A DNA stretch of 64,000 nt from Erodium maritimum (lineage: Eukaryota > Streptophyta > Magnoliopsida > Geraniales > Geraniaceae). Made by a program: the position numbers and the translations under genes. Position 1 is the first letter of the stretch, and each line of letters starts with the position of its first letter. The stretch covers positions 58,102,803 through 58,166,802 of the forward strand of contig OY997588.1 of assembly GCA_963921825.1 (NCBI GenBank). Direction: 5' to 3'. The notes under the pieces are model-generated. The model did no database searches. It saw nothing but the letters and a program-made list of their open reading frames with translations, and was not told the DNA's origin. Below are positions 36,450 to 58,568 of this stretch, piece after piece.

Positions 36450-36467
36450 AATCTTGACTTACTTATT

Positions 36468-38525
36468 TTATTTTTATTTTTTTTGATCCACGAAAAATAA
36501 CAATTTTATATCACCCAAAGCCAAAGATCTCTAGGAGAGATAATACAGGAAAAGGGAGAGAGACAGAGCTAAAAGATGTCCCCATGACAAGGACAAAAGA
36601 GAAGACTTCAAACTAAACACAGAACGAAAGCAAACAAAGGCTGACAGACGCGCTGGTTAAGAGGCGTTCTAAAAACAATTTAATTACTTCGTCCTCGCTG
36701 AAGTTAGCGGAAAACCCCATGGATTTGGAAAAATCCCATGAACGTTTAGCTTCAGATTTCTTGCGAAGAGATATGCTAGAAAATTTGGCAATCGGAGCGA
36801 GATTGGGCGGCTTGCATCGCCTGAGCTATTTGCACTTTTTCTTCCTTAAAAAATCAGCGAGAGGGGAGTCGTCGGCCAACGATGGAGAGTTTATATCAGC
36901 TATAAAATCTTGGAACTTCGCTGGACGAGAGACAATGGGCTTGGGGGCAGATGAGCCAAGGAGAGGAGGCCCAACGGCTAGACCAAAATCATTGCAGGAC
37001 ACAGGGCTTGGGTTAGGGGACTCGAGCCCAACTTCACCCTCAGGAAGGAAAATTTGCGCGAGATTGACCGAGTCATGCGCGTGCGCAGGGGCGGCATGCT
37101 TTGCTTCAACCTCGTCATAACTGCTCATGCCAAGCGTTTCGTGACCCAAGACCAAATTCTCGGAACTCAGCACAATTAAAGTCCCGATGTCCTTGGGACA
37201 GGGGGTCGCCGAAGCCGGAGGAGCCTCGGGAATGACCGGAGAAGATGAGCCTTCACGAGTTTTGGAGCCCCCAACTCCGATCTTGACCGACCCTTCGCCT
37301 CCGGCCGATCTAACAGCTCTGCTACTCCTATCGACGGTGCCAAAAATTCTGGCGTCCGGTTGGGAGATAAGGATCGGCAAAGGCACAGCGGTAGAGCCAC
37401 AGATCTGCGATGGGAGAGAGCAAGGGCGGGGAGAGACCAGAGAGATGGCGCGAATCTCTCCGTCTTCAAGCTCAGAGGGATCCTTCGAGACGGAGGAAGA
37501 AAATGCCGGGACCTGCGACAGAGTCGGGTAGCTGAGGCGAATCGAGAAACTCTTGTCCGAGATAAGGAGCTTAGCGAGCCTCTCAACTGGTTGTAACTCC
37601 AAAGAATGGATGAGAACAAAAGCTCGGTTCAGACGGCTTCGCGAGGAGGAACAGGGATGGAGGAGGAGAGGGGTACCAACCAAAGCAGCTGCACTTGTAA
37701 TCGACAATCTCGTCCAGCCAGAGAGTGGGATACCATCAATAGCAACTCCAAGCAGGTGGCCTCCATCGACAATATCACTAACATTGGTGAAGAGATCCCA
37801 GAACCAAGGGCGAAGGCAAGACCAATCTGATTTCGAAGCGTGCTTGAAAGCTTCCGCGTCAGAGAAGGAAATAAGGAGCTCCTGATTTCCCAAGTCTGCA
37901 AGGCGAACAACTGATCTTTGGGTAGGAGAAAACTTGGACCAAATCGAGGCAAGGTTGTGGCCTGAAAAGGGTAACCCCACAATGCTAAGCTTCAAAGATT
38001 TGTTCCAGCTAGCACAGGAGGAACTAGTGCCAGCGAGGGATGAAACAGATGCAGGACGAAAAGTCGGGGCAGCAACCAAGGGAGCTACGACTTCTTTAAA
38101 ACTGCGAACTCCGGCCGGGGGCGGAGAGGGGATAGGAGCAACAGAGCCAGCGTTGTGCGAGAGAGAAAAGTCTACGATGAGCTGGTCGGAGCCGAGGTTG
38201 GAGCGATGAAGGGCTGAGACGACATTTGCTGCATCACCCGAGTTTACAAAGTGCACGAAACCAAACTTCTTACCAGCTTTGTTAAGCTTGCTAAGAAGGA
38301 AGGCCCTTCGAATCGAACTGAAACTAGAGAACAAAGAGACGAGCTAATCTCGGGAGAAAGCTTGAGGAAGGTTGCAAACGAAGAGCTTGGGGCAAGGAGG
38401 ACCGGCTGGGTGAGAAGCGGGGAGAGGCTGAGAAGGGAGGGGAGGGAAGGAAGAGGAGGGGTCGGGAGGTTTAGCCATAATTCTTCTTTGGTAGGGTTGG
38501 GGAATTGATGAGGCATCTAGCCTTC
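36468..38525 (-). mobile_element. ORF1-only LINE (iv), bounded by an 18-bp TSD
   Basis: AATCTTGACTTACTTATT occurs at 36450-36467 and 38526-38543. Between the copies is a 2.06-kb reverse-strand unit: short leader, ORF1 (38478-36826), about 340 bp of 3' sequence, a hairpin ATCTCT/AGAGAT (36527-36541) and a poly(A) shown as a T-rich run at 36468-36484. ORF2 is completely absent. Perfect TSDs at both ends argue that the shortened form itself was inserted. Confidence 0.88.
36826..38478 (-). pseudogene. LINE ORF1 protein, RRM type
   Basis: Counting from the ATG at 38478 the frame is about 550 codons, with one TAG (38344-38346). The start is Pro/Ser-rich, followed by an RNA-recognition motif with RNP2 LFVCNLP and RNP1 KFGFVHF, so the TAG falls inside the RRM. 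After it come a Ser/Pro-rich linker, a block (KLSIVGLPF ... WSCLRPWFWDLF) typical of plant LINE and DUF4283-like ORF1 proteins, and a long low-complexity C terminus. RRM-containing ORF1 proteins are known in plant L1-type (BNR-like) LINEs and bind LINE RNA in the ribonucleoprotein. I chose 38478 because it restores RNP2, which the ATG at 38334 downstream of the TAG lacks. After the stop the coding sense seems to continue briefly in another frame (SEAKRSWDFSKSMGFS). Confidence 0.82.
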
Positions 38526-38543
38526 AATCTTGACTTACTTATT

Positions 38544-38905
38544 ACAGTTTAACATTCATACACCGGTACTGGGAAATAAATAACCAGCACTAGGCTTTAA
38601 ACACCTAGTATTGGGTTAACAACCAACCATAATGTGTTTTTATGAACACCCAATACTTTGTCAACAAAATGGTATTGTGATAAAAAAAACACAAGTACTT
38701 GGAAACATGATCTACTACCGTGGATGGGATGAAGATCAAGTTTAAGGATAAAGATCAAATTTGAGGATGAAGATCAAGTTTTATGATTAAATTTAACGTC
38801 CAAGAAGATTAACATGAAAAGGACGAAGAGTACTAACATCAAGAGGTTCAAAAAAATGAACAACGATATGAGGACGAAGGTCATTAACATGAACATAAAG
38901 TATTG
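38544..38905. other. Spacer with ACCAGCACTAGG-style repeats
   Basis: The first 150 bases hold variants of CCGGTACTGGGAA, CCAGCACTAGG and CCTAGTATTGGG, like the arrays near 44080 and 45230. From 38730 there are three copies of a 25-bp unit containing AAGATCAAGTTT. No gene. The SIRE-like LTR starts at 38906. Confidence 0.45.
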
Positions 38906-41900
38906 TGTTGTTACATCTAGGTTGATCATGTTTTGTGTCAAGCAAGATGTTATATGAGATGTCATCTGACATCCTATGCGTGTCCGGTAGCAAAGATAAA
39001 AAAGATGTCATCGAAAATGTCAACAAACATCTTGTGCGTATATGTGTGTATTCAACACTGCAAATTTGTTTTCTAGTTAGAAGATACATATGTAATATAT
39101 ATCTTCTCTTTTAAGGAAAGTATTCAATGCAAGGAAACAAAGTGATTTTCCCTGATCGTGACTCTCAAGATTAAGGAAACCCTAGGATGCACAATACAAG
39201 GGTTATTGGAGCTATAAAATCCCAAGTAACTCTGGTAGCTCGGTTCGGATCATCGGTCATATTCTCTCTGAACATTATAAATCGTAACTGACCATTTGCC
39301 GTCTGTGAGGACTATTTGTTTTTGTTCCTTTTTAATGATTTTAGGTTTCCTAAGCGTGTTGGACTAGCGTGTTAGGAGAAAGAATGAATAAAGCAAGGGG
39401 GAACATTGTTGTGCTCATCCATCATTCGTAACTGAAGTGTAATGAAGCAATGTTTTCGTGATTGAAGTGTCATGATACCCCTTGAAGACCGCAAGGCTGA
39501 ACCGATAGTGAAGGGCTCGTAGAATGGAATCAAGAGTGACACTTGGATTCATGGGGAGACCTTGAGATAGGTTTGCACCATAATAATAACATAGGTTTGA
39601 TATGAAGGATCAAAACATGTATGTTGATTGATTACATATAGTGAAACCTTTCTGCTGGAAAAATACCCCTAGCTGTAGGTGATGATGCATTGAACTAGGT
39701 AACCAACTTGTGTGTCTTCGTGTGCTAAACTATTTTACTTGTTTGTTTCCATTCTGTTATAACGCAAGATGTTAGTCAACAAGTCAGAAAATCTTGAATG
39801 ACATCTTGCCACGACACCTTATCATCATTTCAATTGGTATCAGAGCGGGTCACACATTCAAAATGAAGATAATAGCTATAGAGGAAATGCATGACATGAG
39901 CATCCTCAGATTTGATGAACTCATGGGTTCACTCATGACATTTGAATTGTCTCTTCAAGGCACAAACAACAAAAAATAAGGAGTGGCCCTGAAAAGCTCA
40001 ACACAAAACCTCAATAATCATACATATTCAGACACTAGGAAGAGATGAGGGGAAAAGTGGTCATGATGGCGAAGAAGGTAACGAAGCGTTTTAACCATAT
40101 GAAAGGGTGATATGTTCGTCAAGATGTATGCCCAAATGTCACTAACATCCCATATCAGAAGGGACAGAGACTCGGTGAAGGAAACGATGATCAAGTTGAC
40201 AACGGAAAGGGGGTTCAATTCCTCAAATGTGAAGGATATAAATACATTAAAAAAGAATGTCCTACTTTACTAAAAGGACAGAAGAAAGGATTTAATGTTT
40301 CTCTGTCTGATTGTGGTGAAGAGAAAAGCGACAAAGAACAGGAAAACAATCATACAACTTTTACAACTCATGTTGATTCTATGGAAACAGGTGAAGATGT
40401 CAACAAAAACCTTTCTCTAGAGTTGCTATCAGATGATGATGTGAACAATACCTACTACCACACGTTCACCAAATGAATAGAAGAACCAAATATTCTTGGT
40501 AAACAGAGCAATCAAATACGAACTCTAATTGAAGAAAAAGCTAGGCTGCTTGAAACAGTTGATTCGCTCAAAGAAGAGGTTAGCAAACTCAATGGGGAAA
40601 TTGATCGAATCTCCAAGTCTGTTACGATGATGAGCTAAAGCGCAGACAAGCTAGACACTCTTCTGTCCATGGGAAAACTAGCTAGAGACATGAATGGACT
40701 GGGATATACTGATAAAGCCTTACCATCTCAAACTATTTTTGTTCCTCCAAATGATCTCTATAATTCCATATCTGTTCAAAACAGAAAGTTGATCAGATTA
40801 TGTGAAGCACTAAAGTATACAATGTTCAACAACATCATACTCGACATCATGTGCAACATTTTCCACGACATCCTGCAAGACATTCAGATGATCAGCAGTA
40901 TCAATGCAAGTCCAATACTCAAGTTGAATCATTGTATGCAAATAAGCTGAAAAGAGCACACTGGGTATGTCATTTATGTTGTAAGAAAGGTCATGTACGA
41001 CCACACTACTATCAACCACATGGAACTTCAGCTGTTCAACAGAGAAAACTTAGGCAACCTCAGACCTCTATGAAACATGCATGGAAAGTCAAAGGTAAAC
41101 ATTCTCATGAGAATCCGAAGCAGGAATGGGGAGTTAAGGGTGAAAATTATCCTGCCAATGTTTCATATACCGCCCTTGCTGAATCCAACAAACATGTTTG
41201 GTACTTTGACAGTGGAGCTTCACGACACATGGCTGGAAATCGTGAATACCTGACAAATGTTCATTTATATCTTGATAGACATGTTACATTTGGAGATGGG
41301 GTCAAGGATAGAGTCATTGGAAAGGTCCAACAATAATTTCTTGGTATCAACTATCTCCCTAAGGCACTACGAGTAGAAGGACTCACTAGCAACCTTTTCA
41401 AAAGAAGTTAAATTTGTGACTTAGGTCTCTTTGTAGAGTTTTCAAGTACCATTTGTGCTGTTTTAGATAAGAACTTGTCTACTCTTATGATTGGCACTAG
41501 ATCAAAAGATAACTACTATATCTTGTCCCAAAATGGAACTATTTCAACTACATGTTTTTCTGCATCAACATGCCTACTATCAAAATGAGATGAACATAAG
41601 ATGTGCAAAAATTCCAGTCATCCAAACCTGAGGAATCCTAATGAGTTCCACAACCAAGCATTTATATTGAAATCAGGCAGAGATGTCACGCAAGCAAGAT
41701 GTTCTGAGAACAAATGTCATTAACGATGTCCTTACTAACATCAAAGCTAACATCTCTGAGAATCATGAGCATGATAGAAACAACAAGAATCACCGTATAT
41801 CTCAATAATATACTCAAACAGAAGAACTAGAATATGGAGAAGTTTATATGACGTATCCTGCAAGGTTCACTGATTCACACATGCCTCTACATGATTATAA

Positions 41901-43107
41901 ATGTCACAAGGCCATGTATGGAACTAGTCCAGCTTCTCAAGGCTGATGTTAAAGGCTATCTCCGAACCTTAAGAAACGAGGCTATGTTCTAAGGGGGTTC
42001 AAACAACTCAATGGTATAAGCAAGAAAGGGATCAACTTCATGACTGCCTAAAATGAACATGTTTGGAGAGATGTCAAACAAGATGTTCCAGCATCATGCA
42101 AGACACATGCTTTCTAAGTCTTAATTGAACATATTCGAAGAATCCGTTGATCAAAAAAAGTATAAAATCAATCATGAAAGATGCTTTTATCAAGGTTGGC
42201 CATGTTTTGTGTCAAGCAAGATGTTATCCAATATGTCATCTAACATCATGTGTGTGCCTGGTAGCAAATATAAAAAAGATGTCATCCGAGATGTCAACAA
42301 ACATCTTGTGCGTATCTGTATGTATCTGGTGCTGCAGATTGGTTTCCCAGTTATAAGATACTTCTCTAATAGATATCGTCTCTATTAAGGAAAGTCTTCA
42401 ATGCAAGGAAACAAAGTGATTTTCCATTATCGTGACTCTCAAGGTTAAGAAAACCCTAGGAGGCACGATACAAGGGTTACTGGAGCTATAAAATCCCAAG
42501 TGACTCTAGTAGCTCGGTTTGGATCATCGGTCACATTCTCTCCTAACTTGTAAGTCATAACTGACCATTAGTCTTCTGTGAGTACTATTTGTTCGTTTTT
42601 CCTTGTTAATGATTTCAGGTTTCCTAAGCGTATTGGGCTAGCATGTAAGGAGATAGAATGAATTAAGCAAGGAGCGAATGTTGTTATGCTCATCTACCAC
42701 TCGTAACTGAAGTGTGATGAAGCTGTGTTTGCATGATTGAAGTGTTACGATCAACCATTGAGGACCACAAGGATAATCCGAGAGTGAATGGCTCATAGAA
42801 TGGAATCAAGAGTGGCTCTTAGATTCAGGGGGACACGCTGAGATACGTTTGCAGTGTAATAATAACATAGGTTTGATCTAGAGGATCATAACTTGTATAT
42901 TAATTGATTACGTATAGTGAAACCTTTTCACTGGAAAGTGCCCCTAGATGTAGGTGATGATGCACCAAACTGGGTAACCAACTTGTGTGTCTTCATGTGT
43001 TAAACTGTTTTAGTTATTTGTTTCCATTCTGTTATGATGCAAGATGTCAGTCAACAAGTCATGACGTCTAGAACGACATCTTGCAACTACACCTAACCAG
43101 AATTTCA
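38906..43107 (+). mobile_element. Decayed SIRE/Maximus-like Ty1/copia element G
   Basis: The LTRs (38906-39832 and 42182-43107) are nearly equal in length (927 and 926 bp) but clearly diverged. They share GTTTTGTGTCAAGCAAGATG, a promoter-side GGAGCTATAAAATCCCAAG block, and ends in TTTCA. The primer site TGGTATCAGAGC is at 39835-39846. The possible TSD is TATTG (38901-38905) and TATTA (43108-43112). The interior has gag and protease remnants. Integrase, reverse transcriptase and RNase H are deleted. The LTR divergence makes it one of the oldest LTR elements here. Confidence 0.85.
39863..41770 (+). pseudogene. SIRE-like gag and protease remnant
   Basis: Broken frames read a gag zinc-knuckle region (CEGYKYIKKECPTLLKGQKK) and an acidic, coiled-coil-like stretch (LIEEKARLLETVDSLKEEVS). 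A second knuckle follows (WVCHLCCKKGHVRPHYY), then the protease start VWYFDSGASRHMAGN. The longest intact piece is 40851-41336. Beyond about 41400 only short stretches of an integrase-proximal region survive, with many stops. DSG is the usual catalytic motif in SIRE-type protease. The protein would package RNA and mature the particle. This copy cannot. Confidence 0.82.
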
Positions 43108-43531
43108 TATTATATTAAGTTGGATGCTAAGGAAGAGCATGAAGTTTGAACATGAGTAAGAAGACGTTGTTTGGGTTCCACGTTCGATTAAGTGAATGTT
43201 CATGTTTGATGAAGAGGATGTATTGTGCTTATTACTCATTGTGAATGCCTTATTTGGTACCAATTTCGATCGTGATAATTTAAAAAATTTATACATTAAC
43301 CCTTATACTTTATAAAAGCTATGGTACTAGGAGAAAAATACACATTCTAGACTACAAAACACCCGCTATTAGGTATGTATCTCTTAACGATGTTATATTT
43401 ATAGAAATTAATGTTCACGGAATAGTATCCATATTACCACATGTAGTGCACATACCAACAAATAAGTCAAAATATTTTGTGTTCATCATTTGAGGAAAAA
43501 TTATATCTCAGGCACGCATACAGAGGAGAAT

Positions 43532-43908
43532 ATGATTCAGAAGATGATGGAGAAGATGCGTCGATGTGGCTTCTCAGCTCTAATTTGCAGGTCGAACTTT
43601 AAGAGGAATCCGGGGAGAATATTTTACGGCTATTCAAATTATAAGTATAGCATTCTATTGTGCGTAATTTTTTTTTGTGAGTGGTGTGTGAATTTCATTT
43701 AACTTATATGAATTTGGTCTGAAAATCGACAAAGTGGTAGAGGATGCGTTTTTTTTAATGGATTGATCAACCGACAAAAGCTAGGGATGATATTGATGGA
43801 TTAGAAAGAAGAACTATGGAGCTTAAACTGGAATTTGCGGATAACGATGAGGTCATCACCTGGTGGGAAATAGAAATTTTAGCTTTCAAGAAGAAAATAA
43901 AAAAATAG
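43532..43908 (+). pseudogene. Small zf-GRF zinc-finger gene, two exons, frameshifted
   Basis: Exon 1 (43532-43644) contains RCGFSALICRSNFKRNPGR then IFYGYSNYK, the C..LI.R....NPGR.FYG.. core of a GRF-type zinc finger. An intron with GT at 43645 and AG at 43739-43740 (96 bp, TTAACTTAT branch-like site) precedes exon 2. Exon 2 begins with GGATGC, giving the GC-hydrophobic-FF piece expected next, followed by WIDQPTKARDDIDGL and a helical C terminus ending KKKIKK and a stop at 43906-43908. One base is missing next to the T8 run (43749-43756), which breaks the frame. GRF fingers bind single-stranded DNA or RNA in several plant proteins, and many short plant copies of unknown role exist. The final Cys of exon 1 (usually FYGC) is Tyr. 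It is probably a decayed copy rather than a working gene. Confidence 0.6.
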
Positions 43909-44059
43909 TGATGTTAGTTGTTGTATTTCTATTTGTATTGTTTATATTTGTAATAATATGGTGAATTTGGAACAACGTAATTGTTGTTTAGGGATGAAAT
44001 GAAGTTGAAACATTTGTCTTACCTTACCTACATTTAGAAATTTGTGAAAAACCATTGCG

Positions 44060-45229
44060 CTAGGGACAAAATCCCAGTACTGGGACCTAAAGCCAACTTC
44101 ACTCTAAGCAGGTTTGTTGTATATCCTACTACTGAAAAAAAATAGTATTAGGATACAAGACAGATCAATAATTCTGCTAAGACATATATCCTAGAACCGG
44201 GAACAAAAACTTAGTACTAGGATACACAACACATCAGAAATTGCACGAAGATAACAAAAAACCCTTGAACACCTCTCTCGCTTCTTTCTCCCCCTTTGGT
44301 TCCTAAATGCGCCACCATCCCCATCACCGGCCCTAGCTTCCCTACTTCCCAACCACATGTGGTATTTTCAATCGGCCACCAACCAACTTCTCTATATCTT
44401 TTTCTTTTGCATTTAAGGGGCTCCAGGGCTAATAAAAGGGCTCCTACGGTTTCTACTCTTCAATCGTCTCCACCACCTCTTATCCAAAGGCTACGGGATC
44501 TTATGTTTCCCAACCTTCAACCTATCATGTCGCATCTATGAATAAGGGTATGACCTCCATGGCCATGCCAGTTACCGCCCGAGTTTCGCCTGGGTAGACT
44601 AACGTATATCGCAGCCTCTGGACCGTAAGGGATTCAGGACCTCCTTGACTGAGGGGTGGAGTTCTTCCTATGTCCATCTCTCTACCGATGGTCTCCCACG
44701 ATCTCTCACCAAGTCTTGTTCGAGGATCACATGTGACACCTAACGTTTTGCCCAAGAAACCCATATATATTGGGTGATCTGATTTGGCCTGGCCAAACCT
44801 CTCATCAGCAGAGGTCGTGGTGGTTACGACCGTAGATACGTGGTTGGTTGTGACAACCAACGTCTTCCCTAACCAGCCAGTAGGAATAACATGTTCAAAA
44901 GGTGCCTATTGTGGGTTCTCCCTGATGCCACCAGCCTCCGGGCCTCCAATGAAGGTGGTGTCACAAGCCCATATAACAATAGCTCCAGAGAATAGGGTAG
45001 AGGAAGGCGGAAGCATCTACTAAAACAAGGAGGTTTAGGCGAGGGCTGTGAAACAGCCTCACTGGGAACCATTTGTTTTTCTATTTTTTGTGTTTTATTA
45101 CGTTTGGTTTCGATATCCACTTATACATTTAAAAAATAATTGTCTATGCTTTGGTTATATTTAGAATAATGTGAAACTTACATTTAAATGTTAATAAAAT
45201 CGTCCCACTCTCAAAACAACGATAAATAG
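44060..45229. other. Unassigned interval with GTACTGGG-type motifs
   Basis: Bases 44070-44240 hold variants of CCCAGTACTGGG and AGTACTAGGATAC. Bases 44280-45080 have moderately GC-rich sequence with no domain in any frame; it could be an old retroposon insert within the repeat array. No ends or TSDs were identified. Confidence 0.35.
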
Positions 45230-45900
45230 TTCAATACTGGAAAAAAGACCCTCAATATTAAGACAAAAACCCAAGCAAAGAAAACAAACTCGGGTACTGG
45301 AAAAAAAATTAATACTATGACACAATACGATACTAGTACAAAAGAAACCATAGTACTGGTATAAAAAACAGAGTAGTGGGACAAAAATCCCAGCAAGGAT
45401 AACAAACCGTAGTATTGAAAAAAAACAGTACTAGGACACAATACGGTATTAGTAGAGAAGAAACCATAGTACTGGCATAAAAAACAATGTGAAGACAAAA
45501 ACACCCCCAACAAGAAAAACAAACCCTGGTACTGGAAAAAATGTTGTAGGATTGAATACGGTACTAGTACAATAGAAACCATAGTACTGGGATAAAAAAA
45601 CATTACTAAGACAAAAAAAAAACCCCATAAAAGTAAACAAACCCTATTATTGGAGAAAAAGCCCGTACTAGAACACAATACGATACTAGTACAGAAGAAA
45701 CCATAGTATTGGGATAAAAAACAATACTAAGACAAAAACCCCAATAATGAAAACAAACCCTGGTTTAGCGGAACAAAAAAAAAACTAGTACTAGGACACC
45801 ATACAATACTAGTACAAAAGAAACCATAGTACCGGGAAAAAACACCCAGTACTAAGATAAAAACACACAAACACCCCATGTACCAGGTTAAATACCCAGG
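45230..45900. repeat. Tandem array of 115-123-bp units
   Basis: The marker GAAACCATAGTA recurs at about 45344, 45460, 45575, 45697 and 45820. Each unit also holds GGACACAATACGATACTAGT and CCAGTACT-like motifs in both orientations. The array lies directly downstream of the reverse-strand remnant at 45957-46590. This placement fits the subterminal repeats of a CACTA-type DNA transposon, but termini were not found. Confidence 0.8.
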
Positions 45901-45956
45901 ACTAGGATAGAAACCAGATCAAGTATGTCAAAACAAAAATTTACATCCAACTTTAA

Positions 45957-46590
45957 TTCAAAAATTTACATCCATTCCATCTCTGAGTAAGCCGACATAA
46001 TATTGTTCGTCACCCACTCCAGCATGTCCTCTACATCTTCATACACTGTCACTTCACATTTTTTATCTTCGTCTTCTTCTTCATTAGGGCCTTCCTTTCT
46101 GGAATCGTCTATGCCAACTTCTACATCTTCTTCTATTGACACTTTATATTGATTATTTGCACTTTGTTCTTTATATTTTTCATCTACATCTGTATTATTG
46201 ACACTTTATCTTCTACATTTTCTTCATCTTTTTTATGTGTTTCTTCTTCATCTTTCTTATTTTTAGCTTTTTCATCTTTTGTATCTTCCTTTTCTTGTGC
46301 ATCTTTTTTCTTTAACTTCTTCATCTTTGGTATCTTTTTCATCCTCTGCATCTTTCTTTTAGTTTCTTCATCCTTTTCATCTACATATTTTGCATCTCTT
46401 TTATCTTCAACTTCTTCATATTTTTTGTTATCTTTTTCATTTTTTTTCATCTTCAGCTTCTTTGTCTACATCTTCCTTTCTAGCTTTAGATATATCTATC
46501 TTCAAGCTTTTTAGTCTGTCAAAATATTCCTTTAGTTCTGTATTCAATGTTTTTATCTCATCCGTATAGCACTTTAGCCCGTCATTTCTT
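45957..46590 (-). pseudogene. Lys/Glu-rich coiled-coil coding remnant
   Basis: Reverse frames read DGLKCYTDEIKTLNTELKEY, FDRLKSLKIDISKARKEDVD, a frameshift in an A-run, then about 90 residues of Lys/Glu/Asp repeats (46184-46450). After another shift comes a coherent acidic end, DVEDMLEWVTNNIMSAYSEM, with stop near 45957. The composition predicts a highly charged coiled coil. No catalytic domain is present. The upstream part of the gene is cut by copia F at 46607. The subterminal-like array beside it suggests an accessory gene of a DNA transposon, but a diverged host gene is possible. Confidence 0.45.
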
Positions 46591-46606
46591 CCTTCAAGGT
46601 TTCAAG

Positions 46607-48642
46607 TGTTGGGCCTCGTTGGAGGGTATGAAAACATACTCGCAGCGAAAAATAACTAGACACCATGCCATAGAACACTACCAAATATTAGATACACAAG
46701 AGAATAAACAATATTGATGTCTCCTTACCAATTAGTTCAAAAACACAAGTGAAATGAAGAGAACGCCAAAGAAACTATGATTGGATTGAGTCTCCAAGAC
46801 ACCTACGTATTTTAGGATCAAAGCCACGTAGTTCTTCTTTAGATTTCTCAAGAACACGAATTTTGGAGAGAATTCCCCTCTTGGCCGAAACTAGAGAGAG
46901 TGGGTGTGAGGTTATGAACTATTCTTGTCTTCTGCTTTGTTATATTGAATAAGATGACTTAATCAATCAATATACACAATAACCATCAAGGACAAGTAAG
47001 GTGTGAAGTATGGTGTAAACTAAGACAAGTATGGTGCTAAGTATGGCTTGACAAGATGGCGTTAGGTGGTGAATCACCAACACCTTAATTCTTGTCTTGC
47101 TTACTTAGTACTAATTAATCAGGACTTGATTAATTAATTCCATGGGCCTCTTGGAACATGGCCCATGGCCATTCCCTAACGAGGTCCTGTGATGCGTTGA
47201 TTGCCCCCAAGCCTTCCATACCAGAAATGTCCAACATTATCCGATGTGATCAATCCCAAGACTCCAAGTCTTGACTTGATCCGTAAAGTCCTATTCACTT
47301 ATGGGCACATGACCCAAAACCTTGTTTTGGTCATGTCTAGATACAGCTCACTTTTGGCCATTATCAATAAATGTGTCAATGAGCTTCTTCCTCTGGTGTG
47401 ATCCTTAGATTTATGCATGTCAATAGATCAACGTAAAATTACATTTTACTTGATCTTACGTAAGTGGCATTTAACTAGACTTTAGTATTGCCTGACACTG
47501 CATAGTGAATCGACACCGTCGATTCTAACCTTTCTGTCGTCCCTGTCATTATCCTTTTATGGGTTATATACGTTCACCTACCCCATACTATACACGTTTA
47601 ACGGATAAATACCCCAAAGTTATTTCGTAACGAATACATACCCCGAACTAACATTTTGTAACAATATCCCCCCTCCCATCCATTTTTCAATCCATTTTTA
47701 TGGTTAGATTTAGGGTTGGAGAGTGATTTAAGGTTGAATTTAGGGTTGGAGTTGGTTTTAGGATTGTAATACTACGGATTGTTTCGGAATTTCGAAAAAA
47801 AGAACGGTAAATGGACGAAAAAATGGGGGATGTTGTTACACTTGTTATTTCGGGGTATGTATATGTTACTTGGGGTAGGTATCCGTTAAACGTGTATAGT
47901 TTGGGGTAGGTGAATGTAATTAACCCTCCTTTTATCACCGATATCCTGAATGAGATAAGGCATACAACAGTCATCCTTATTATTCTCAATCATTATTCCT
48001 TGGTATCTGAGATGATTGAATCTTTGATACCTAGTATCATGTGTATGGCGATGTTATTCTTTCAGTCATTCTCGATCAAGCGGTCGAGAACGGATATATT
48101 TCCCACATCGTAGTATGAAGGATAAATCCCTTAGTCGTCTTTCCTGTCACTCGTGCAGTCCATCCCCAAGCCAATCTTGGTCATCATGGAAGCCCTGATA
48201 CAGACAACGTTAGACTCAAGTCAAACTCAGTTGTTGATTGCATATCGATCACAAAAACTCCTTAGTCTAAGGATACAAGACAAGCTATGACACTGAATAC
48301 GTTCATGACTTAATCTATGTAACATATTCAGAGAGGGTCGTCCAATAACATGTCCCACATGATAACTATAATCAGACTCCAGAATCTCATTCATATGACT
48401 AATATAACGTAAGCCATAAAGAGCCATCTTTCATACTAGTTGCTTCTAGTGAAGCTTTGTTGACTAGGGACCCATCGAGTCTATCTCTATCTATGGCTCT
48501 ATTCGCATGGTAGGCATAGATCAGAACACACATCGACAAATTACTCCAACACATAAGTAATATAAAGCCGCTTTACTTTTATCGCTAACAATGATATATA
48601 CATTTGGATGTCTATGATTGAACTACGGGCACTAGGACCAAA
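46607..48642 (-). repeat. Copia F 3' LTR
   Basis: It aligns with both solo LTRs of the family along its length except for the 366-bp MITE at 47561-47926. The outer end has drifted (AGGACCAAAAA where the solos have CTAACA), so the boundary at about 48642 is approximate. Confidence 0.85.
47561..47926. mobile_element. Mutator-type MITE, 366 bp
   Basis: Terminal inverted repeats of roughly 110 bp begin GGGTTATATACGTTCACCTA at the left. The right end, read in reverse, begins GGGTTAATTACATTCACCTA. An exact 9-bp target duplication TCCTTTTAT (47552-47560 and 47927-47935) is the usual length for Mutator-superfamily transposases. No coding capacity. It is absent from the corresponding position of the solo LTRs and of the 5' LTR of the same element, which proves insertion. 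Confidence 0.92.
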
Positions 48643-48657
48643 AATATCCCACTTTCC

Positions 48658-50088
48658 CTAGTTCCAATATAAACTACAATATGTTCCCATTGACCTTACA
48701 TGCCTCTCATGTTTAGGAAACGATAGTGCCTTAGTCAACGGGTCGGCTACGTTATCATCAGTTGTAATATAGGAGATCTTCACATCCCCTCGGTTTAGTA
48801 TCTCTTTTATGAGGTGGTATCGCCGCCGTACATGAATGGATTTGTAATGCAACCTGGGCTCTTTAGTTTGCATATTAGCCCTTGTGTTCTCGCAAAATAG
48901 GTTCACCAGACTAGATGGGTTTTCTATTACACCCAACCCTACCGTGAACTTCCTAATCCACACAGCCTCCTTGGCTGCCTCTGCAGCCGCTATGTACTTT
49001 TCCTTTATCATGGAGTCAGCAACGGTGTCTTTCTTTACGCTCTTCCAGATGAAAGCTCTGCCATTCAGCGTGAACATATATCCTGACTGACTTCTAAAGT
49101 CATCTGGATCTGTTTGGAAACTACCGTCTACATATCCATTAACGAATAACTCATAATTATCTTTTCCCACGTACGCCAGAAACGCATCCTTACTTCTTCT
49201 CAAATATTTAAGAATCTCTTTGACCGTTATCCAGTGTTCCGTACCAAGGTTATACTGATGTCTGCTTGTACAGCTCAAGGCATATGAGACATCCGTTCTT
49301 GTGCATATCATTGCATACATGATAGGTCCTACCGATGAAGCGTATGGGCTTCACATCATCATTTTTAGCTCATCAGGTTTCGTAGGACACTAAGTCTTGC
49401 TAAGATGAACGTCATTATGTGCAGGTAAGAGTCCTTTCTTGGAATCAAGCATTGAGAACCTACTCAATACCTTGTTCACATAGGTGATTTGACTTAAACC
49501 CAAGAACCTCTTGGTGCGATCTCTATATATCTTAATCCCTAAGATATAAGCAACATCGCCTAAGTCCTTCATTGAGAAATACTTCCCTAACCAAGCTTTA
49601 GTCTCGAGCAAGGTTGGGATGTCGTTTTCAATTAGTAGTATGTCATCGACATATAGCACCAGAAAGGTAATCTTACTCCCGTTTGCCTTCTTGTAAACAC
49701 AAGGTTCATCCTCGTTCTTGATAAAGCCAAATCCAGTTACAGCTTAATCAAAACAAAGGTTCCAACTCCGAGAAGCTTGTTTAAATCCATAAATGGATTT
49801 CAACAACTTAAAAATATATCCCTTATTCTTCCGATCGACAAAACCTTTGGGTTGAGACATATACACGTCCTTCGAAAAATTTCCATTTAGAAAAGCGGTT
49901 TTGACATCCATTTCCCATATCTCGTAATCTCGATACATAACTACGAAAAGAAGAATCTGGATTGATTTGAACATAGACACTATGGAGAAGGTTTCCTCAC
50001 AGTCAATCCTTTTGATATGCCTATAACCTTTCGTCACTAGTCGGGCTTTGTAGGTACGTGGGTTGCCTTCCATGTCCATCTTCACCAT
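48658..50088 (-). pseudogene. Copia F reverse transcriptase and RNase H
   Basis: One reverse frame, interrupted by stops at 49744-49746, 49390-49392 and near 49350. Reverse transcriptase starts with YKARLVTKGY, then CEETFSIVSM, KTAFLNG, SIYGFKQASRSWN and the catalytic YVDDILL (about 49650). RNase H follows (VDGSFQTDPDD, WKSVKKDTVADS), ending in NVADPLTKAL. The RNase H TEAEY-type motif is altered to IKEKY. This would copy element RNA to DNA in the particle. Three stops and altered residues make it dead. Downstream is a short polypurine-like AGGGAAAGTGGGATA before the LTR. Confidence 0.9.
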
Positions 50089-50274
50089 GAAGATCCATTT
50101 GCATCTGATGGTTCTTACACCATCGATTGGATCAACCAGTTCTCAGACTTGGTTGTCCGACATGGATTGCATTTCCTCCCTCATGAATCCCATCCATAAC
50201 GCGGAGTCGGGTCCATCCACGGCTTCTTGAAATATAGTTGGATCATCTTGATACACCACAAGCTCTTCGTCACC

Positions 50275-51455
50275 TCATGACATAAAGTAGCCATATCTCG
50301 GAGGTGGACGACAAACCCTTTCAAATCGCCTTGGACCTTCTGGAATTGTTGCAGGAACAAGTCCTTGCTCTACGACCATCTCTGGCTCCTCTACAGGGTT
50401 GTCCAGTGGGTCAAATGGATTTGTACCATCCTGAATTTCTTCTATATGCATAGTACTCCCACTGACGTCTTTGGAAATAAACTCCATTTCCATAAAGACC
50501 ACATCACAAGTGACGAAAACCATGTTCTCGCTGAGGTTGTAGAAGTAGTATCCCCTTGTTTCTTTGCGATACCCAACATAGGTGCATTTATCAGATCTTT
50601 GTTCAAGCTTAGTAGGAACCAAACGTTTCACAAAATCCTCACAACCCCAAATATTTAAGAAGGACAAAACATTTTTCTTCCCGTGCTATTTCTCAATGAT
50701 GTCCCTTCCACAGCCTTCATCGGAGCCCGATTCAATATGAATGCTCCCGTCTGTAGAGCGTAACCCCAGAAAGAGATTGGGAGATCAGTACAACTGACCA
50801 TGGATCAGACCATATCCAATAATGTCTGACTCCTCCGTTCGGGCACATCGTTCATTTGTGGTGTCCTGGGAGGAGTCCATTTAGAGAGGATCCCACTCTC
50901 AGCTTGATGATCTAAAAAATCTATAGTCAAGATTCACATCTATCAATCGAATGAAATTCGAATGGACTAAAAAATCTACACTTGAAAAAAGCTGATATGC
51001 ATTTCTCGTTTATGTGGCCTAAACGACATTTCCATTATAGAATTTGGTTTAAACCGTCGGACTTAGACCTCTTGGTATTTACATTATATATAGAGCTTGA
51101 GGCATTGTTATCCATATCCAATATGTACAATCCTCCAATCATTTTGGCACTAGTATAAAATATATCATTGCATAAAATACTGAAAATCACATTTCCATTA
51201 TCAAACTTGTATCCTTCCTTGTCCAACAAAGAAATGGATACAATGTTCCTACTAAAAGTAGGAATGTAATATACATATGTTCAAAACAAAAACTAGCCCA
51301 CTTGGCAAAAGAAGAGTATTGGATCCTACATCAGTTGCTACAACTCTAGTCTTGTTGCTCACTCTAAGGTCCACCTCATCCTTCTTCAAGCTTCTCCTCC
51401 CTTCCAGCCATTGCACATTAGTACAAATGTGAGATTCAGCCCCAACATCCAACAC
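50275..51455 (-). pseudogene. Copia F protease and integrase remnants
   Basis: At 51455-51252 a protease start is visible, but the catalytic Asp-Thr-Gly is DVG (LDVGAESHICTNVQWLEG). The integrase core is mostly lost. Its third catalytic region survives near 50880 (WTPPRTPQMNDVPERRSQT), and the C-terminal region lies at 50275-50667 (WGCEDFVKRL, YVGYRKETRGYYFYNLSE), followed by a linker toward reverse transcriptase. Several frameshifts and deletions separate the pieces. Confidence 0.78.
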
Positions 51456-51499
51456 CCATGAATCTTTGGAAGTAGTGAGATTTATCTCTATAAAGAAAA

Positions 51500-52345
51500 T
51501 ACATGATGAAGACGTAGTCCCACCGGCCTTCTTTCAGATTTTCCAGACATTCTCGACATCCTTCCCTTTCCTTGAGGACTCCCCGGTCCTAGGAGGGTTA
51601 GGACGCTTCAGATTCCTTATCTTTCCTGTAAAATGCACAGGGGGCTTGCCCTTGCCACTAACAGTTCCCTTACTCTTCAAATTGTTTCCTTATCTGACCA
51701 TCATAAGATCCTTGGATCCCTGATTCTTGACGTTCTTTTTAGCAGTCACTAACATTTCATGCACCTCTGAAATGGTCTTGTCCATATCATGCATATGATA
51801 GGTTATGACGAATGTAACATATGAACGAGGAAGGGAACGCAGAACCACGTCCGTTTCCATCTCGTTTTTCAATCTTAAGATTTAGTCGCTTAAGATGTTC
51901 GAGATGCCCCTTCATCTTTAGGACATGAGGACCCACGGAGACTCCTGCTGACATTTTGCAGGAGAGAAGTTAATTAAGGACATTCTATCTCACGATACAT
52001 TCCCTTTCCTTGAACACACAATTTATGACCAACATCATATCATAAGGGTCATCAGAGTACTCCATGAACAGCTCTCGGAGATCAGAATCCATGTTCCCCA
52101 ACATAATACATGCCACATCTATAGAATCGCTAAGGTTCTTTTGGTATATATCCTTAACGGCCCTAGCGGCATTATTAGCTGGCTCCTCAGGGATAGCCTA
52201 GTCCAGGATATATTCTTTGCGTTCGAATTTGAGGACTATCCTCAAGTAACTATGCCAGTCCAAGTAGTTTGTCCCACTTAGCTTGACCCTATCTAGAATG
52301 GTTTTTAGCGACGAACTATTATTGTTCGCTGAAGTACTTTTCATT
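51500..52345 (-). pseudogene. Copia F gag
   Basis: Read from the ATG at 52345 the frame shows the copia gag N terminus (LKTILDRVKLSGTNYLDWHS, then LRIVLKFERKEYILD), a stop where Gln/Glu is expected, and further gag pieces (NLSDSIDVACIMLGNMDSDL). After a frameshift come LPRSYVTFVITYHMHDMDKT and LHEM-type helices near 51870-51690. The expected zinc knuckle region (about 51500-51600) is not recognisable. It would form the capsid. Confidence 0.8.
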
Positions 52346-53200
52346 TGGTCTACTCGAAAAACAAAATTCAATCAGTAAACTGAATAAAGTTTATGAAGAT
52401 CAAGTTTAAACATCAACCAATTGATTCTAAACCTTTAGAATCTAAAACCACGATCCTTTATTCACTCGATCACGTTGAACGAATGGTCACCACTTAATCG
52501 GGCTATGTAGGTAGGACCCCATCCAATCACATTCAAAGTGACTCTTGGATAAGGTATGTACTCATGTACACGGCTTACCCTATTTGATACCCTAGCTCAG
52601 ACCTAGTTGAGAATCGTAGTCGGGTCCACCAATTTTCAACTATGGCCCATGACTATATAGGTGTTCTGTTAAGGCGCAAGACACCCACATATGTCGTCCA
52701 AACTTACTGCCCCGTTTTTCCATGGATGCAATACTAAGGCACACGAAAACCATAAGACGGGTGTTATCAAACATCATCTAAATTTCTGATTGTAATTAAC
52801 AGCTAAGTTTCAAAAAAATTTAATGCTCGGTTTATCGAAACCAATCAAAATTGAAAATTTTGAACATTTGATTTTTTTAGTTCGTTAAGATGGTTCCAAA
52901 CTCGTCATGACTAGCAAAACGGTTTGGTTCGGCATATCTACCATCCAATGGTCATGCTCGGCTTAGCTCCGTCCAATGGAGCCCCATTCGGTCCCAGTTT
53001 CGGCTCCATGAGAATCCTGCTCCCGAGACCCGAAAAATCAAACTTTTTTCAAAAATTCCAGATTTGATATAATTTAAAAAAATTCATTTTTCAAGTAAAC
53101 AAACCCATAAACAAGAATTTAAAACATGTTATCAATCAATATGAAAATTCAAGTAAAACCGAAAACACAATTAAACTTTTATGAATCCCGGAGGTAGCAC

Positions 53201-53213
53201 GACTCAAATACCA
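53201..53213 (-). other. Degenerate tRNA-iMet primer site of copia F
   Basis: On the reverse strand TGGTATTTGAGTC follows the LTR end CCAACA after one base. Compared with TGGTATCAGAG, two bases are changed. Confidence 0.75.
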
Positions 53214-53214
53214 C

Positions 53215-54110
53215 TGTTGGATCTCGTTGGAGGGTATGAACAGATACTCGCAGTGGAAAATAACTCGATAACATGCCATTACACTACCAAATATTAGATA
53301 GACAAGACAATAAACAATATTGATGTCTCCTTACCAATTGGTTCAACAACACAAGTGAAATGAAGAGAACACCAAAGAAACGATGATCGGCTTGAGTCTC
53401 CAAGACACCTACGTATTGACTTGGAATTAAAGCCACATAGTTCTTCTTTAGATGACTAAAGAACACAAATTTTTGAGAGAATTCACCTCTTGGCCGAAAC
53501 ACGAGAAAGTGGGAGTGAGGTTATGCAATATTCTTGTCTTCTGTTTTGTTATAATGTAAGATGACTTTTTCTTTTTATCACCGATATCCTGATTGAGATA
53601 AGGCATAGAGCCACCATCCTTATTATTCTCAATCATTGGTCCTTGATATTTGAGATGAATGAATCTTTGATACCCAGTACCATGTGCATGACCATGCTAT
53701 TCTTTCAGTCACTCTCGATCAAGCGGCCGAGAACCGATATCTTTCCCGCACCATAGTATGAGGGATAAATCCATTAGCTGTCTTTCGTGTCACTCATGTA
53801 GTCCGTCCCCACGCCAGTTCTGGCCATTATGGAAGCCCTGTTACGGACAACGGTAGGATCATGTCAAACTCAGTTGTCCACTGCGTAGCAATCACAAAGA
53901 CTCTTTGGTCTAAGGATACATGACAAGCTACGACACTGAATATGTTCATGACTCAATCTATGGCAAATATTCCCGGCCGGTCATCCAATATCATGTCTCA
54001 TATGATATCTATGCTCAGACTCTGGAATCTCATTCCTATGACTAATAGAACGTAAGCCACAAAGAGTAATCTTTCATACTAGTCGCTTCTAGTGAAGCTT
54101 TGTTGACTAG
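53215..54110 (-). repeat. Copia F 5' LTR, truncated and internally deleted
   Basis: TGTTGGATCTCG at 53215 matches the other family members. Similarity jumps at about 53570 from the ATAAGATGACTT region straight to TTTATCACCGATATCC, losing roughly 600 bp of LTR (measured without the MITE), and ends at about 54110 (TTGTTGACTAG). Confidence 0.85.
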
Positions 54111-54483
54111 CGAAGAAGCCTCAGACGACACAACTCTTCACATGACTAGAGAATTACATTCTTCCGTTGATTGCCCCCCACCCCCAAATAGACTCCACAT
54201 TTTCCTCACTACTTCAACGCGCAACTCGTAATTCTGATGTCGGTGAGGAAGAACCAACATCGCTAGGAGGGAACGTTATATGTTCTCTTAGTGACTTATA
54301 TATTTTTGGATTCAAATATAGATATAGTTATTGTTCGATCATAGTTACTCAATATTTGAATAAAAATAAATTTAAAAAAGAACATTTCAGAAAGAGGTCT
54401 TGTTAAAGGGTTTGAGATCTAATGGTCACTGCTCCTGGGAAGCTTTGAATGGCGTTGTCTTGACCCTAGGATAGATGTGTATT
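54111..54483. other. Unassigned spacer
   Basis: No element end, coding remnant or repeat was recognised between the truncated copia LTR and the LINE tail at 54484. Confidence 0.5.
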
Positions 54484-56600
54484 CTTTTTTTTACTACGAG
54501 ACTTTATTACTTAATAATGAAACATGGTACCAGTAGAATAAGGGGAGTAGTCCCTCTAGAGAGAGACTATAGTTAATCTTCAAAAAGGGTCTAAGACATA
54601 GTTGGGATTTTGGTTTTGGAGCAAACAGTAAATGAAATAAAACGACAATTGAACTATAAAAGAAATCAATGACTAGAACAAGAACGAAAACCTAAGGACA
54701 AAACCATCTCCAACTTTTCTTGAACCCGACCACTGTGGCCTTAATACTAGTGTGATTTCCTAAAAAAAAACAATAAATTGCAGATGAATGCGCCTGGTAC
54801 AGCCAGCGATTGTGTGCGATACTGGAGGACCCCGAGAGCCAGGGGTGTTGTCAATCCTCCAAGACAGGCCATGGCCGAGAGGCCTATGTCCTTGCGTGGC
54901 TGTTTCCGAGCCCTCAATAGTTCACTTCTCCCAATAAGCTCTGATTGACCTCTCTCCAGATTACCGATAGGTCCTGTCGTAGGGTTAGACATGACGATAG
55001 TTTTCGCCAAAACATCCTTTGTCCCCCTAAAGGGGCATTTGAACCTGGTTGGGTTAGGGGTCCCAACATAGGCAAGCGACATAGACCAGACGATGGACCC
55101 CATTACGATTTTTGGTGTCTGAAGTGGGGAGAAACCTAGCAAACCCCAGGGGACGGACTCGAAGTTGGTGGCACCCACTCCAACGGCACCAACTTCCCAA
55201 TCTCTAGGGCACCATCCACGAAAAGAGACTTATAGTGCCTAGGGGCTCCTGGAAGTTCCAGAGCATAGCCAACAGCCGCATGGCCAATCCTACCGCAGTT
55301 GAAAAAAAACATGGGAACCCTTCATACTTGAGGGTGACCCAAAGTGGCTAAGGAAACTCCTGAAACCCAAGACCATCGTCCTCCGAAGGGTTTGGTTGAT
55401 AGTGTCCAAATCGTACGCGGACCTTTCCACCCTAGTAGAATCCCCACTTATCTACATGAACCTTCGCACATCCTCCCAACGTGTCACCCACCCTAGTACT
55501 GGTGGTAACCGTGGATATTGTCTGTTGAATTTCCTAGACCTAGGCCCATAGTAGAAGTCGGTCAAATCCTGGCCTAGGAGGCCTTCTAGTCCGAGTTTTG
55601 TTAGAATAAGAGTGTAGCAGCAGAAGCACCAAGGCTCACCTCGGCGGACAGTCTCCATCGTCACCTTGTTCGTAAAATAAAACACTCAGAACCCTAGAGA
55701 AAGATCTTTGATAACTAATCCCTCCACCGTAGATCCTCACCCGCGAAGAATAATACTCATTACAAAGTCCCTAATATGCGGTCGAGGAGAGAGGAATATC
55801 CCTACCAAACCGAAGTGCATGCATACCGGAGAAGGCAGTTGTGATGCCGGGACTCAGAATATAGCATCCTCATCCGACAATGGTATGCATGTCTCCAATG
55901 AGGTACCGATATCATCCAATAATGGTAACGTAGCCGTCACTAGTGGTGGCATGCTCCCCAATATAGACAACGATCCCCGTCCTAATGGTGATCGGCTTGC
56001 CTCCGCCCTAGGTGGCACCTCCTGATGATGAGGTCTTGTGCTAGAGAAGGGTAGTAGGGGTGGAGTTGGCACAATTCCTAGTGTTGCGTCTGTGGCTGCA
56101 TCTATCAACAAGAGGGCCCCTTGGGCTAGGGTTTCTCCTACAGAGAGTTGGTTTCCTAAGCCATATACCCCCGCACTCTTGGTAATATCGTCTTGGATAG
56201 AATCCTTAGTAAGCCTGGGAGAATAACATCAAGGGAAGGGCTTCCAATGAAGGAGGGGTTACGGCCTGCCCAGTCTCAGAGGAGGAAGCGGGAGGCATCA
56301 TCGTAAGAGCCACAAACAACGTATTGAATAAAGTCATTGGTAGGAGAGACGTCGTGGGAGGGGATGCGCAACATGTATAAGGTTTTAAAAGAGGGCTAGA
56401 AGTAGCGTCGGAAGGGTGCCCCAGACCCCAAACCCATCGAACATGGAAAAGTCGTTGGTGATAACTACCTGGGCTTTCTCGGGGCATGCTTGGGAGCAGA
56501 CGACAGCATGGAAGGGTTAGAGGAAGGCACGGGGATGGAGGAGGAGGATAGTGAGAACTCCATTAGAGTATCAAAAAAAGAGTAACTAGGGTTTCCTACC
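54484..56600 (-). mobile_element. LINE fragment with degraded DUF4283/CCHC ORF1 (vi)
   Basis: On the reverse strand the unit ends in an A-run (54484-54492) behind a TTATTAAGTAATAAAGTC tail and a hairpin at 54548-54569. Upstream frames carry a DUF4283-like block (TNKVTMETVRRGEPWCFCCY, 55452-55685), a worn zinc knuckle (NCGRIGHAAVGY near 55290) and a Gly/Arg-rich C-terminal frame (54747-55178, WGLLGFSP). The N-terminal region to about 56600 is Ser/Pro-rich and broken. No ORF2. I could not find a TSD. Same architecture as 19298-20927. Confidence 0.6.
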
Positions 56601-56652
56601 ATCAATTGTAAAATTAGAATAGTTGTGCGATAATTGAAAGTGTGCATTTTAT

Positions 56653-58427
56653 TTTATTGGAAATGGATCATTCCTCACATTCTAAGGAAAAGCAATGACA
56701 TTTCCTCCTTTGCATCCTTTCTCCGCCTTTTGTTCTGGTTTGATTTCCTTATATGGGGAATATTTCCATGTCATTTCTACTGTGAATAAGAGAAGGCATG
56801 ACCAGCAGTTCAAAGGAGAAATCGTGGGTAGAGCAAAGGGAAACAAGGCCTTATTGCCACTACTGCTGGTAGTATGGAACCAAGGTCGAAAGTCGAGCGC
56901 CCGATTGAGATGGGTGTTGTAGTTCCTCATCAGGTTGATGTTGAGCGTGAAGATACTCAAGGAGACGTTGACCATATCGTTTCCAGCGTAGGATTAGATG
57001 AGCCACGTTTGATCGAGAAGAAGATTCGTGAGAAAAAGGCTTTGTCGTCTGACCGTGGCAAGATCGTCACAATGTCATCTAGGGAGAAGGTCAGTCATCG
57101 TCGCCGCCGTTCCAATAAGTTAGCACCGACACGTTTTGTCGAGTCGGCTACTGATATTTTGGTGCGTAACTTGTCGTTCAAATCATCAGAGGAGTGGGTA
57201 CCAGGTGTATTCGGTCTTTTTGTTGAGATCGATTCGTTATTAGTTCTGCACTGACCAAATAGACAAGGCCAGTATTTTGGTTTCATCCGGTTTTCGTCGG
57301 AGGTGTTAGCTTCTCAAGCACTTGAGAGCTTTTATGGGTATAAGATGAATGGTTATATCATTTTCGTCGCTCGTGCCCGACGTAGGATTGGGAGTAATGA
57401 TTATCCTTCGTCGTTCCCGGTTGTCTCAGAATAATATAGCATAGGCTCTGTTCCAATTTCGTGAAACAACGAATCTGTCTTTGGTGTTCCTGTGGAGGAT
57501 TCGTTGCGTTGTGATGGCCAGGCACTCATGGTGGTTGAACCACCAATCCAAAATGGTAACAGCTTGATGTTGCAGCGTTGCCGGAATCCGATGCAGTGAG
57601 TCGATGAGCTTCCGTTTCGGCTTCGTCCGATTTTGTTGGGATTGAGGGATTCGTGGATTGTGAAATCTCCGTAAATCAAGGAGTATCCTTGAACGCCTTT
57701 GAAAATAGGGATTTGATTGCTTCAGAACCAGATTCTTGTAGCGTTTTGTGTGGTGAAGGAAGCGCATATTTGGTGTTGGAGGAGAATGGGATGGGTTTTG
57801 TTAGGTCTGGGCCTGGGCCGTTTTGCACATCTCTTTCAGCAGACCTGAAATTAAATGGGTCGGGTTCAGGTTTTAATGGGTTCACATCGGGTCTGGTATC
57901 TCCCGTAATTATTGTGAATGTTTCCGGAGCTAGTATCCCTCTAGCAGGTCATACGTCACTACAGGCGGAATATAGTGATCCAATGAGGGACCAACAAGGT
58001 AGTCCGTGGAAGGAGTTGCTCCTTCAACATCCGAAAACTATGAACAAGGGTCCCCTCTCGAAGTAGGCTCCTTCTAGAGCTTCGAATCGTCAGAGTCAGT
58101 CTCCCAAGTTTTTAGGGGACTACTATACTGTTAATATCAAACCAGCTCGATCCTTGAGCCGTGTGTATCCTATGGACGTTTGGAAGTAGATTATACAAGT
58201 TCAAGTCGCTCAGCTAGATCATTCAGCTAAAGATTTTAATGATCTGACCTTGACTTCAGAAAATGAAGAATGGGTCGTTGATGGTTGATTTAATGACTCA
58301 TTTTGTTTTTTTTTCGGGGATTGTTCCCGCGGCTTCTTCTGAGAGCTCCCTTGTAATGTTTTCCTTTGATTAGATTCTTCTTCAATCTGGCTTTTTTGTA
58401 AATAAAAGTTTTAAAGCTTATCAAGAA
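56653..58427 (+). mobile_element. ORF1-only LINE (v), bounded by a 15-bp TSD
   Basis: AAAGTGTGCATTTTA occurs at 56638-56652 and 58428-58442. The 1.78-kb unit has a leader, an RRM-type ORF1 (56874-58066 in broken frames), a short 3' region with hairpin AGATT/AATCT (58372-58388) and a terminal GCTTATCAAGAAAAA. There is no ORF2 between ORF1 and the tail. It is the second RRM-type ORF1-only copy in the window, on the opposite strand to the one at 36468-38525. Confidence 0.85.
56874..58066 (+). pseudogene. LINE ORF1 protein, RRM type, broken
   Basis: The ATG at 56874 opens a charged N terminus with a basic patch (KVSHRRRRSNK) and the RRM start (TDILVRNLSF as RNP2). A TGA at 57252-57254 interrupts the RRM. 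The same frame continues with QYFGFIRF (RNP1) and a basic tail (ARARRRIGS) to about 57430. After a frameshift an acidic, Gly/Ser-rich frame (57653-58066) forms the C terminus. RRM-type ORF1 proteins bind LINE RNA. At least one nonsense codon and one frameshift are present, so it is non-functional. Confidence 0.78.
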
Positions 58428-58568
58428 AAAGTGTGCATTTTACAGTATTATTAGTCTGTACGTTTTTGTGTGTTTTATTGTATTATTAAAATATGCATTG
58501 TTTTTCACGTGTGCTATTATCACATGTATGTTTGTCTTTCACAAACATGAAAAAAAAAATCAACATTT

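Follow-up and report, generated by a model that had tools for sequence, protein, structure and literature searches.

A window of 64,000 nucleotides from the genome of Erodium maritimum (contig OY997588.1) carries two retroelements, A and B, each terminated by a 3′UTR and an A-rich end, and each bounded by an exact target-site duplication (TSD; Table 1). Both window copies are interrupted by stops or frameshifts. The copy of A is 49% identical over 585 residues to the family protein L026, and that of B is 59% identical over 189 residues to the family protein at C8:54.72M. The ends of the ORF1 regions were set by reading the window sequence against the tail alignment for A and against the alignment of B copies for B. 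The preliminary description had recognized A, with the limits and the 18 bp TSD of Table 1, as an RRM-type ORF1 with a LINE tail and without ORF2. This was confirmed by the exactness of the TSD, by a Pfam search with a family protein and by the lack of a match to the ORF2 query inside A. For B, the 15 bp TSD, the RRM ORF1, the tail and the lack of ORF2 also held, and the start, which had been placed at 56653, was corrected to 56652 since the upstream TSD copy ends one base before. Elsewhere in the window, Ty1/copia-like open frames were recognized by eye from the translations at 12549–16607 (+) and 48658–49320 (−), and other LTR-retrotransposon-like frames lie at 25–987 and 3279–3812.

Table 1. 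Features of elements A and B in the 64,000-nucleotide window.
Feature	Position	Strand	Observation
Element A, ORF1-only LINE (half-LINE)	36468..38525	-	near-full-span copies elsewhere in the genome
18 bp TSD copy flanking A on its 3′ side	36450..36467	.	exact repeat of 38526-38543
18 bp TSD copy flanking A on its 5′ side	38526..38543	.	exact repeat of 36450-36467
Element A 3′UTR and A-rich tail, common to the family	36468..36656	-	20-copy alignment, 19 crossing the ORF1/3′UTR junction
ORF1 region of element A, with RRM, a DUF4283-like part and the C-terminal motif; interrupted in the window copy	36657..38478	-	
5′ leader of element A, particular to this copy, from the TSD to the ORF1 ATG	38479..38525	-	by eye unlike the leaders of other copies
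Element B, ORF1-only LINE of the second family	56652..58427	+	85% copy at C4:36886215-36887806
15 bp TSD copy flanking B on its 5′ side	56637..56651	.	exact repeat of 58428-58442
15 bp TSD copy flanking B on its 3′ side	58428..58442	.	exact repeat of 56637-56651
ORF1 region of element B, with RRM and the C-terminus ..LGDYYTV..EEWV.DG; interrupted in the window copy	56695..58288	+	
Element B 3′UTR, terminating GCTTATCAAG(A)n	58289..58427	+	alignments of nine copies

The A member L026 matched RRM_1 in Pfam (E 3.2e-12), together with a DUF4283 match below the curated cut-off (E 1e-4). The B member at C8:54.72M also matched RRM_1 (E 6.8e-14), and B gave no DUF4283 match. Among four family proteins compared with Pfam, RRM_1 was present in three and DUF4283 in two (below the cut-off), and no model of the mammalian L1 ORF1, the ORF1 type of mammalian HAL1, was among the matches listed. 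The two elements had been treated as parallel. Both are indeed ORF1-only, but their ORF1s, 33% identical over 72 RRM residues, belong to two different families with many diverged copies each. Over a hundred such copies per family were present among the matches listed (120 rows for A and 148 for B), and protein identity within the A family goes down to about 40%.

The search for copies with the same junction, proposed in the preliminary description, was run on the whole 763-Mb genome. The window A query produced 44 rows among the matches listed, with the near-whole element at five places including the window. The four near-full-span copies outside the window (91, 90, 84 and 78% identity) showed the same ORF1/3′UTR junction and TSDs of their own. 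TSDs were searched for in 13 A-type and nine B-type copies, and a single-rule test was applied to 12 and four of these, respectively. The longest exact shared words measured 18, 13, 14, 12, 16, 8, 16, 15, 14, 0, 10 and 13 bp in the A copies, and 15, 11, 6 and 15 bp in the B copies. Words of at least 12 bp were shared by the ends of 11 of the 16 copies, compared with 10 of 3000 random placements, the letters of the A-tail entering some of these words and the upstream sequence being 400 bp for B_C1_73 and 180 bp for the other copies and the random control. The five copies below 12 bp were C7_12 (8), L034 (0), L029 (10), B_C1_20 (11) and B_C4 (6). For the window elements themselves, the longest word shared in 2000 random pairs of window flanks was 14 bp, compared with exact TSDs of 18 bp (A) and 15 bp (B). 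Outside the single-rule test, B_C1_52 showed an exact 16 bp repeat located further upstream, L033 and L013 showed repeats of 17 and 15 bp with one mismatch each, and nothing clear was seen for B_C3_11, B_C8_54 and L015. Several insertions with separate TSDs and a single junction, the pattern expected of a half-LINE and named beforehand as support for a mobile family, were thus observed in both families, although B yielded fewer TSDs than A.

In the A family, the C-terminus of ORF1 is followed by the stop and by a 3′UTR of about 190 bp. By manual count among the matches listed, the ORF1 stop was crossed by 35 of 44 A rows (stop at query position ~190) and was matched on both sides in 39 of 48 B rows, window included. 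Twenty A tails were aligned, drawn from the window copy and 20 loci with L029 omitted; the L029 match, at query 60–613, also spans the stop. The junction was continuous in 19 of the 20 tails, similarity being lost just after the stop in L031, and the 3′UTR could be aligned from end to end in 19 copies. A junction unique to each copy, which had been put forward as the observation that would speak against a half-LINE family, was therefore not what the tails displayed. Seven shorter matches (L023, L024, L025, L031, L032, L035 and L036) contained the C-terminal codons of ORF1 and little or none of the remainder, as expected from 5′-truncated insertions. Twelve further matches to the 3′UTR (12 of 40 rows) were compared with the ORF1 C-terminus by tblastn: six were positive, five were negative, including L048 in which the C-terminal motif was readable by eye, and one, L044, lies beside a LINE ORF2. 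L044 was considered as an autonomous partner and rejected, its A-like 3′ end being a separate, 5′-truncated and nested half-LINE tail. This tail, 92% identical over 151 bp to L034, lies downstream of the point where the LINE itself ends.

The distance from ORF1 to the 3′ end was examined with 58 of the 120 A-ORF1 rows and 61 tail places among the matches listed. Twenty-three rows were paired with a tail, two of them being halves of one element (3932 and 783 bp from the tail), which leaves 22 elements. Between the last ORF1 match and their 3′ end there were 584–1163 bp, which cannot accommodate an ORF2 (about 3.7 kb). With 84 of the 148 B rows and 39 tails among the matches listed, eight ORF1/tail pairs were found at 718–867 bp; another B row had a reverse transcriptase (RT) place 4.8 kb away on the opposite strand.

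ORF2 itself was searched for with that of L037, an L1-type LINE of the E. maritimum genome taken from a PF00078 match. No match was found inside A or B, which encode ORF1 and no RT. Among L001–L036 the query found only a fragment in L023, downstream of its tail, and the remnant beside B. This remnant, the sole significant match in the window (58782–59129, +), is a 116-aa L1 ORF2 C-terminus (35% identity) situated ~340 bp downstream of B, outside its TSD. When 117 A-ORF1 places were compared with 129 ORF2 C-terminal and 33 LINE-type RT places, no pair lay within 9 kb among the matches listed. These sets represent 117 of 120 A rows (the other three being second pieces), 129 of 133 ORF2 rows and 33 of 150 RT rows, the last judged LINE-type from their longer match span. 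Among the matches listed no copy of A or B was linked to ORF2, a search in which an autonomous A-type or B-type element may be missed.

More distant relatives showed the same organization. Five A-type relatives at 41–44% identity were fetched with ~1 kb past ORF1, and all five were ORF1-only: the C-terminal motif (broken by an early stop in L058) was followed by a short 3′UTR ending in GCTGATCAAAA, GCTGATAAAA, GTGGATCAAAA or a similar sequence, beyond which no relation was seen. The three B-type loci fetched were likewise ORF1-only, L061 being itself a copy of B, 79% identical over 438 bp. In these eight deep loci, which were picked for long open frames and are not a random sample, the ORF2 query gave no match at E below 0.2. 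L059 and L060 showed a third type of ORF1 C-terminus leading directly into a 3′UTR with the ending TTCGCTTATAAAA and an A-rich end, provided, as is assumed here, that the fetched sequence prolongs the frame of ORF1.

A link to ORF2-bearing elements was provided by L053 (C7:16054600-16060900), which contains an RRM-like ORF1 followed by ORF2, with interrupted frames. Its ORF2 is 41% identical to that of L037 over 647 residues and 38% over 462 residues. The A ORF1 is homologous to that of L053 (25% identity over 219 residues), and the C-terminus of A aligned with the C-terminus of the L053 ORF1, just before ORF2; for three A sequences, 3, 43 and 0 of 1000 shuffles reached the score. Judging from this alignment, A appears to consist of a full ORF1 plus a 3′UTR. 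At the 3′ end, by eye, L053-type LINEs resemble A only in the terminal 20 nt or so. The relation of B to L053 is weaker than that of A and limited to the RRM (25% identity over 76 residues). The ORF1 is therefore related to the ORF1 of a plant LINE that has ORF2, more weakly so for B.

Purifying selection on the A ORF1 was observed between subfamilies. Among 11 of 12 aligned copies (55 pairs, C3_2 being omitted for a deletion), pairwise dN/dS was 0.22–0.37 at dS above 0.4, and subfamilies reach dS above 1. The pair L026/L027 gave 0.32 at a dS of 0.31, and the four closest copies gave 0.49–0.64. Shifted-frame controls were made on seven of the 55 pairs: in six deep pairs the other two frames gave 0.91–1.37, and in the closest pair, A_win/C5_44, the real frame gave 0.64 and the others 1.32 and 0.63. 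Parsimony on the A tree (10 copies, 471 ungapped codons, uncorrected for multiple hits) gave 0.41 for internal branches and 0.45 for terminal ones, so that the latter show no clear relaxation relative to the former. Open frames of at least 550 codons, with no stop within the match, contained 20 of the 117 A-ORF1 matches among the matches listed. Selection was seen less clearly in B, for which eight of nine copies (28 pairs, L013 omitted) gave dN/dS of 0.42–0.94. The real frame was the lowest in 27 of the 28 pairs, the exception being the closest pair, B_win/B_C4 (0.94, above 0.54 and 0.55 in the other frames).

The copies of each family thus have one ORF1/3′UTR junction, separate TSDs, 5′-truncated members and, in the copies examined, no ORF2. 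Carrying only the first gene of a LINE, they probably borrow the enzyme of another element for their copying. We consider it very probable that A and B belong to two separate families of ORF1-only non-LTR retrotransposons, mobilized in trans by an autonomous L1-type LINE, and we read them as HAL1-like LINEs, old and diversified. The view already expressed, with HAL1 as a parallel, that two independent exact losses of ORF2 are less likely than insertion of the half-element as such gains support from the shared junction and the separate TSDs. In the mechanism that we propose, ORF2 would have been lost before the families radiated. An mRNA with ORF1, the short 3′UTR and a poly(A) tail would be transcribed, and the ORF1 protein, with its RNA-binding RRM, would be translated and probably bind its own RNA in cis. 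The endonuclease and RT would be supplied in trans, presumably by an autonomous L1-type LINE, and target-primed reverse transcription would insert the copy, leaving TSDs and 5′-truncated copies.

The homology of ORF1 with that of the ORF2-bearing L053 might also suggest that the copies decayed one by one from autonomous LINEs, ORF2 having been lost after or during insertion. This seems very unlikely, and is largely refuted by the retention of one junction in 19 of 20 aligned A tails, even across subfamilies at dS above 1. The results of the ORF2 searches in L001–L036 and in the deep loci also speak against it. Still less credible is an origin of the ORF1 copies as retrocopies of a host RRM gene: the RRM is common in host proteins, but A resembles L053 in ORF1 and at its C-terminus, and both families comprise more than a hundred diverged copies among the matches listed. 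The DUF4283 match of A, although below the cut-off, also points away from a host gene, this domain being conserved among LINEs of diverse plants (PMC11288735).

A third reading, in which several families of autonomous LINEs gave rise to half-LINEs on separate occasions and the selection on ORF1 is that of the autonomous parents, is improbable to a lesser degree. The lack of relation between A and B beyond the RRM and the third C-terminal type of L059 and L060 indicate that there was probably more than one origin, and mammalian HAL1s have several separate origins (PMC5753468). On the other side, the A 3′UTR aligns along its full length across 19 copies, and in the 9-kb comparison none of the A-ORF1 places was near an ORF2 or LINE-type RT place among the matches listed. 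Beyond mobilization in trans, it is possible, and we propose it tentatively, that ORF1-only LINEs, far from being accidents, form a deep class of plant replicators which evolves independently, has outlived its parent, keeps its own ORF1 protein under selection and borrows only the endonuclease and RT. The retention of this protein under selection would imply action in cis. If ORF1 of an enzyme-less element stays selected, the protein should favor its own RNA, and these families would allow the cis-preference of ORF1p to be tested in a natural system free of ORF2. Censuses of plant LINEs based on RT would then miss a sizeable coding class.

The RRM is also carried by the ORF1 of BNR elements. 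Together with LINE-CS, BNR is one of the types of plant L1-type LINEs (PMC9033089), and the Celine LINE has an ORF1 with DUF4283 and TSDs of 10–30 bp (PMC11288735). A and B resemble the plant L1-type LINEs by the DUF4283 (Celine) or RRM (L053) in ORF1, the TSDs and the A-rich 3′ end, and differ from them by the absence of ORF2. Mammalian HAL1, a non-autonomous L1 derivative coding for ORF1p only (PMC5753468; see also PMC4859970), has in common with A and B an ORF1 without ORF2. It differs by its mammalian host and in that the ORF1 is an RRM with a DUF4283-like part in A and an RRM without DUF4283 match in B, that the parent LINE of A and B was not found among the matches listed, and that the A family spans such low protein identities. 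Sadhu elements are not known to encode an ORF1. These elements of Arabidopsis are, like A and B, plant non-autonomous retroposons (PMC2848041), whereas A and B code for ORF1. The EKA genes of powdery mildew, discussed as effectors, are many truncated copies of a LINE ORF1 lacking its C-terminal half (PMC4641428); A and B are also many-copy ORF1 derivatives, but the C-terminus is kept. No plant half-LINE was found in the open-access literature searched, nor was one described in the accessible text of the Boea OAR1 paper.

A conserved 3′ hairpin was considered as a signal for RT and dropped: of eight 3′ ends folded, none clearly exceeded the shuffles (best L059, z −1.74). RNAalifold found little covariation in the A 3′ end, and the pair counts of the B 3′ end were not above those of letter shuffles, though slid controls were lower. 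At the other extremity, similarity between A copies (and, by inspection, B copies) starts at or near the ORF1 ATG, and the stretch of 1 to about 145 bp from the TSD to the ATG differs. This also applies to L030 and L033, which are 97.6% alike over 42 bp and whose similarity begins at the ATG. Exceptions were TTG at the place of the ATG in C8:65.47M, its absence there in L026, and a short similar stretch seen by eye in two B leaders. From this pattern we infer that the RNA begins near the ATG and that extra sequence is joined at insertion; 5′ transduction may be an alternative source. The 106 bp leader at C5:44.10M had no other match in the genome search. The 157 bp leader of L020 (C1:97.45M) is patchwork-like and matched just two unlinked pieces elsewhere, 44 bp at C1:126921770 (95%) and an exact 27 bp segment antisense to an ORF1-like copy at C1:75.02M.
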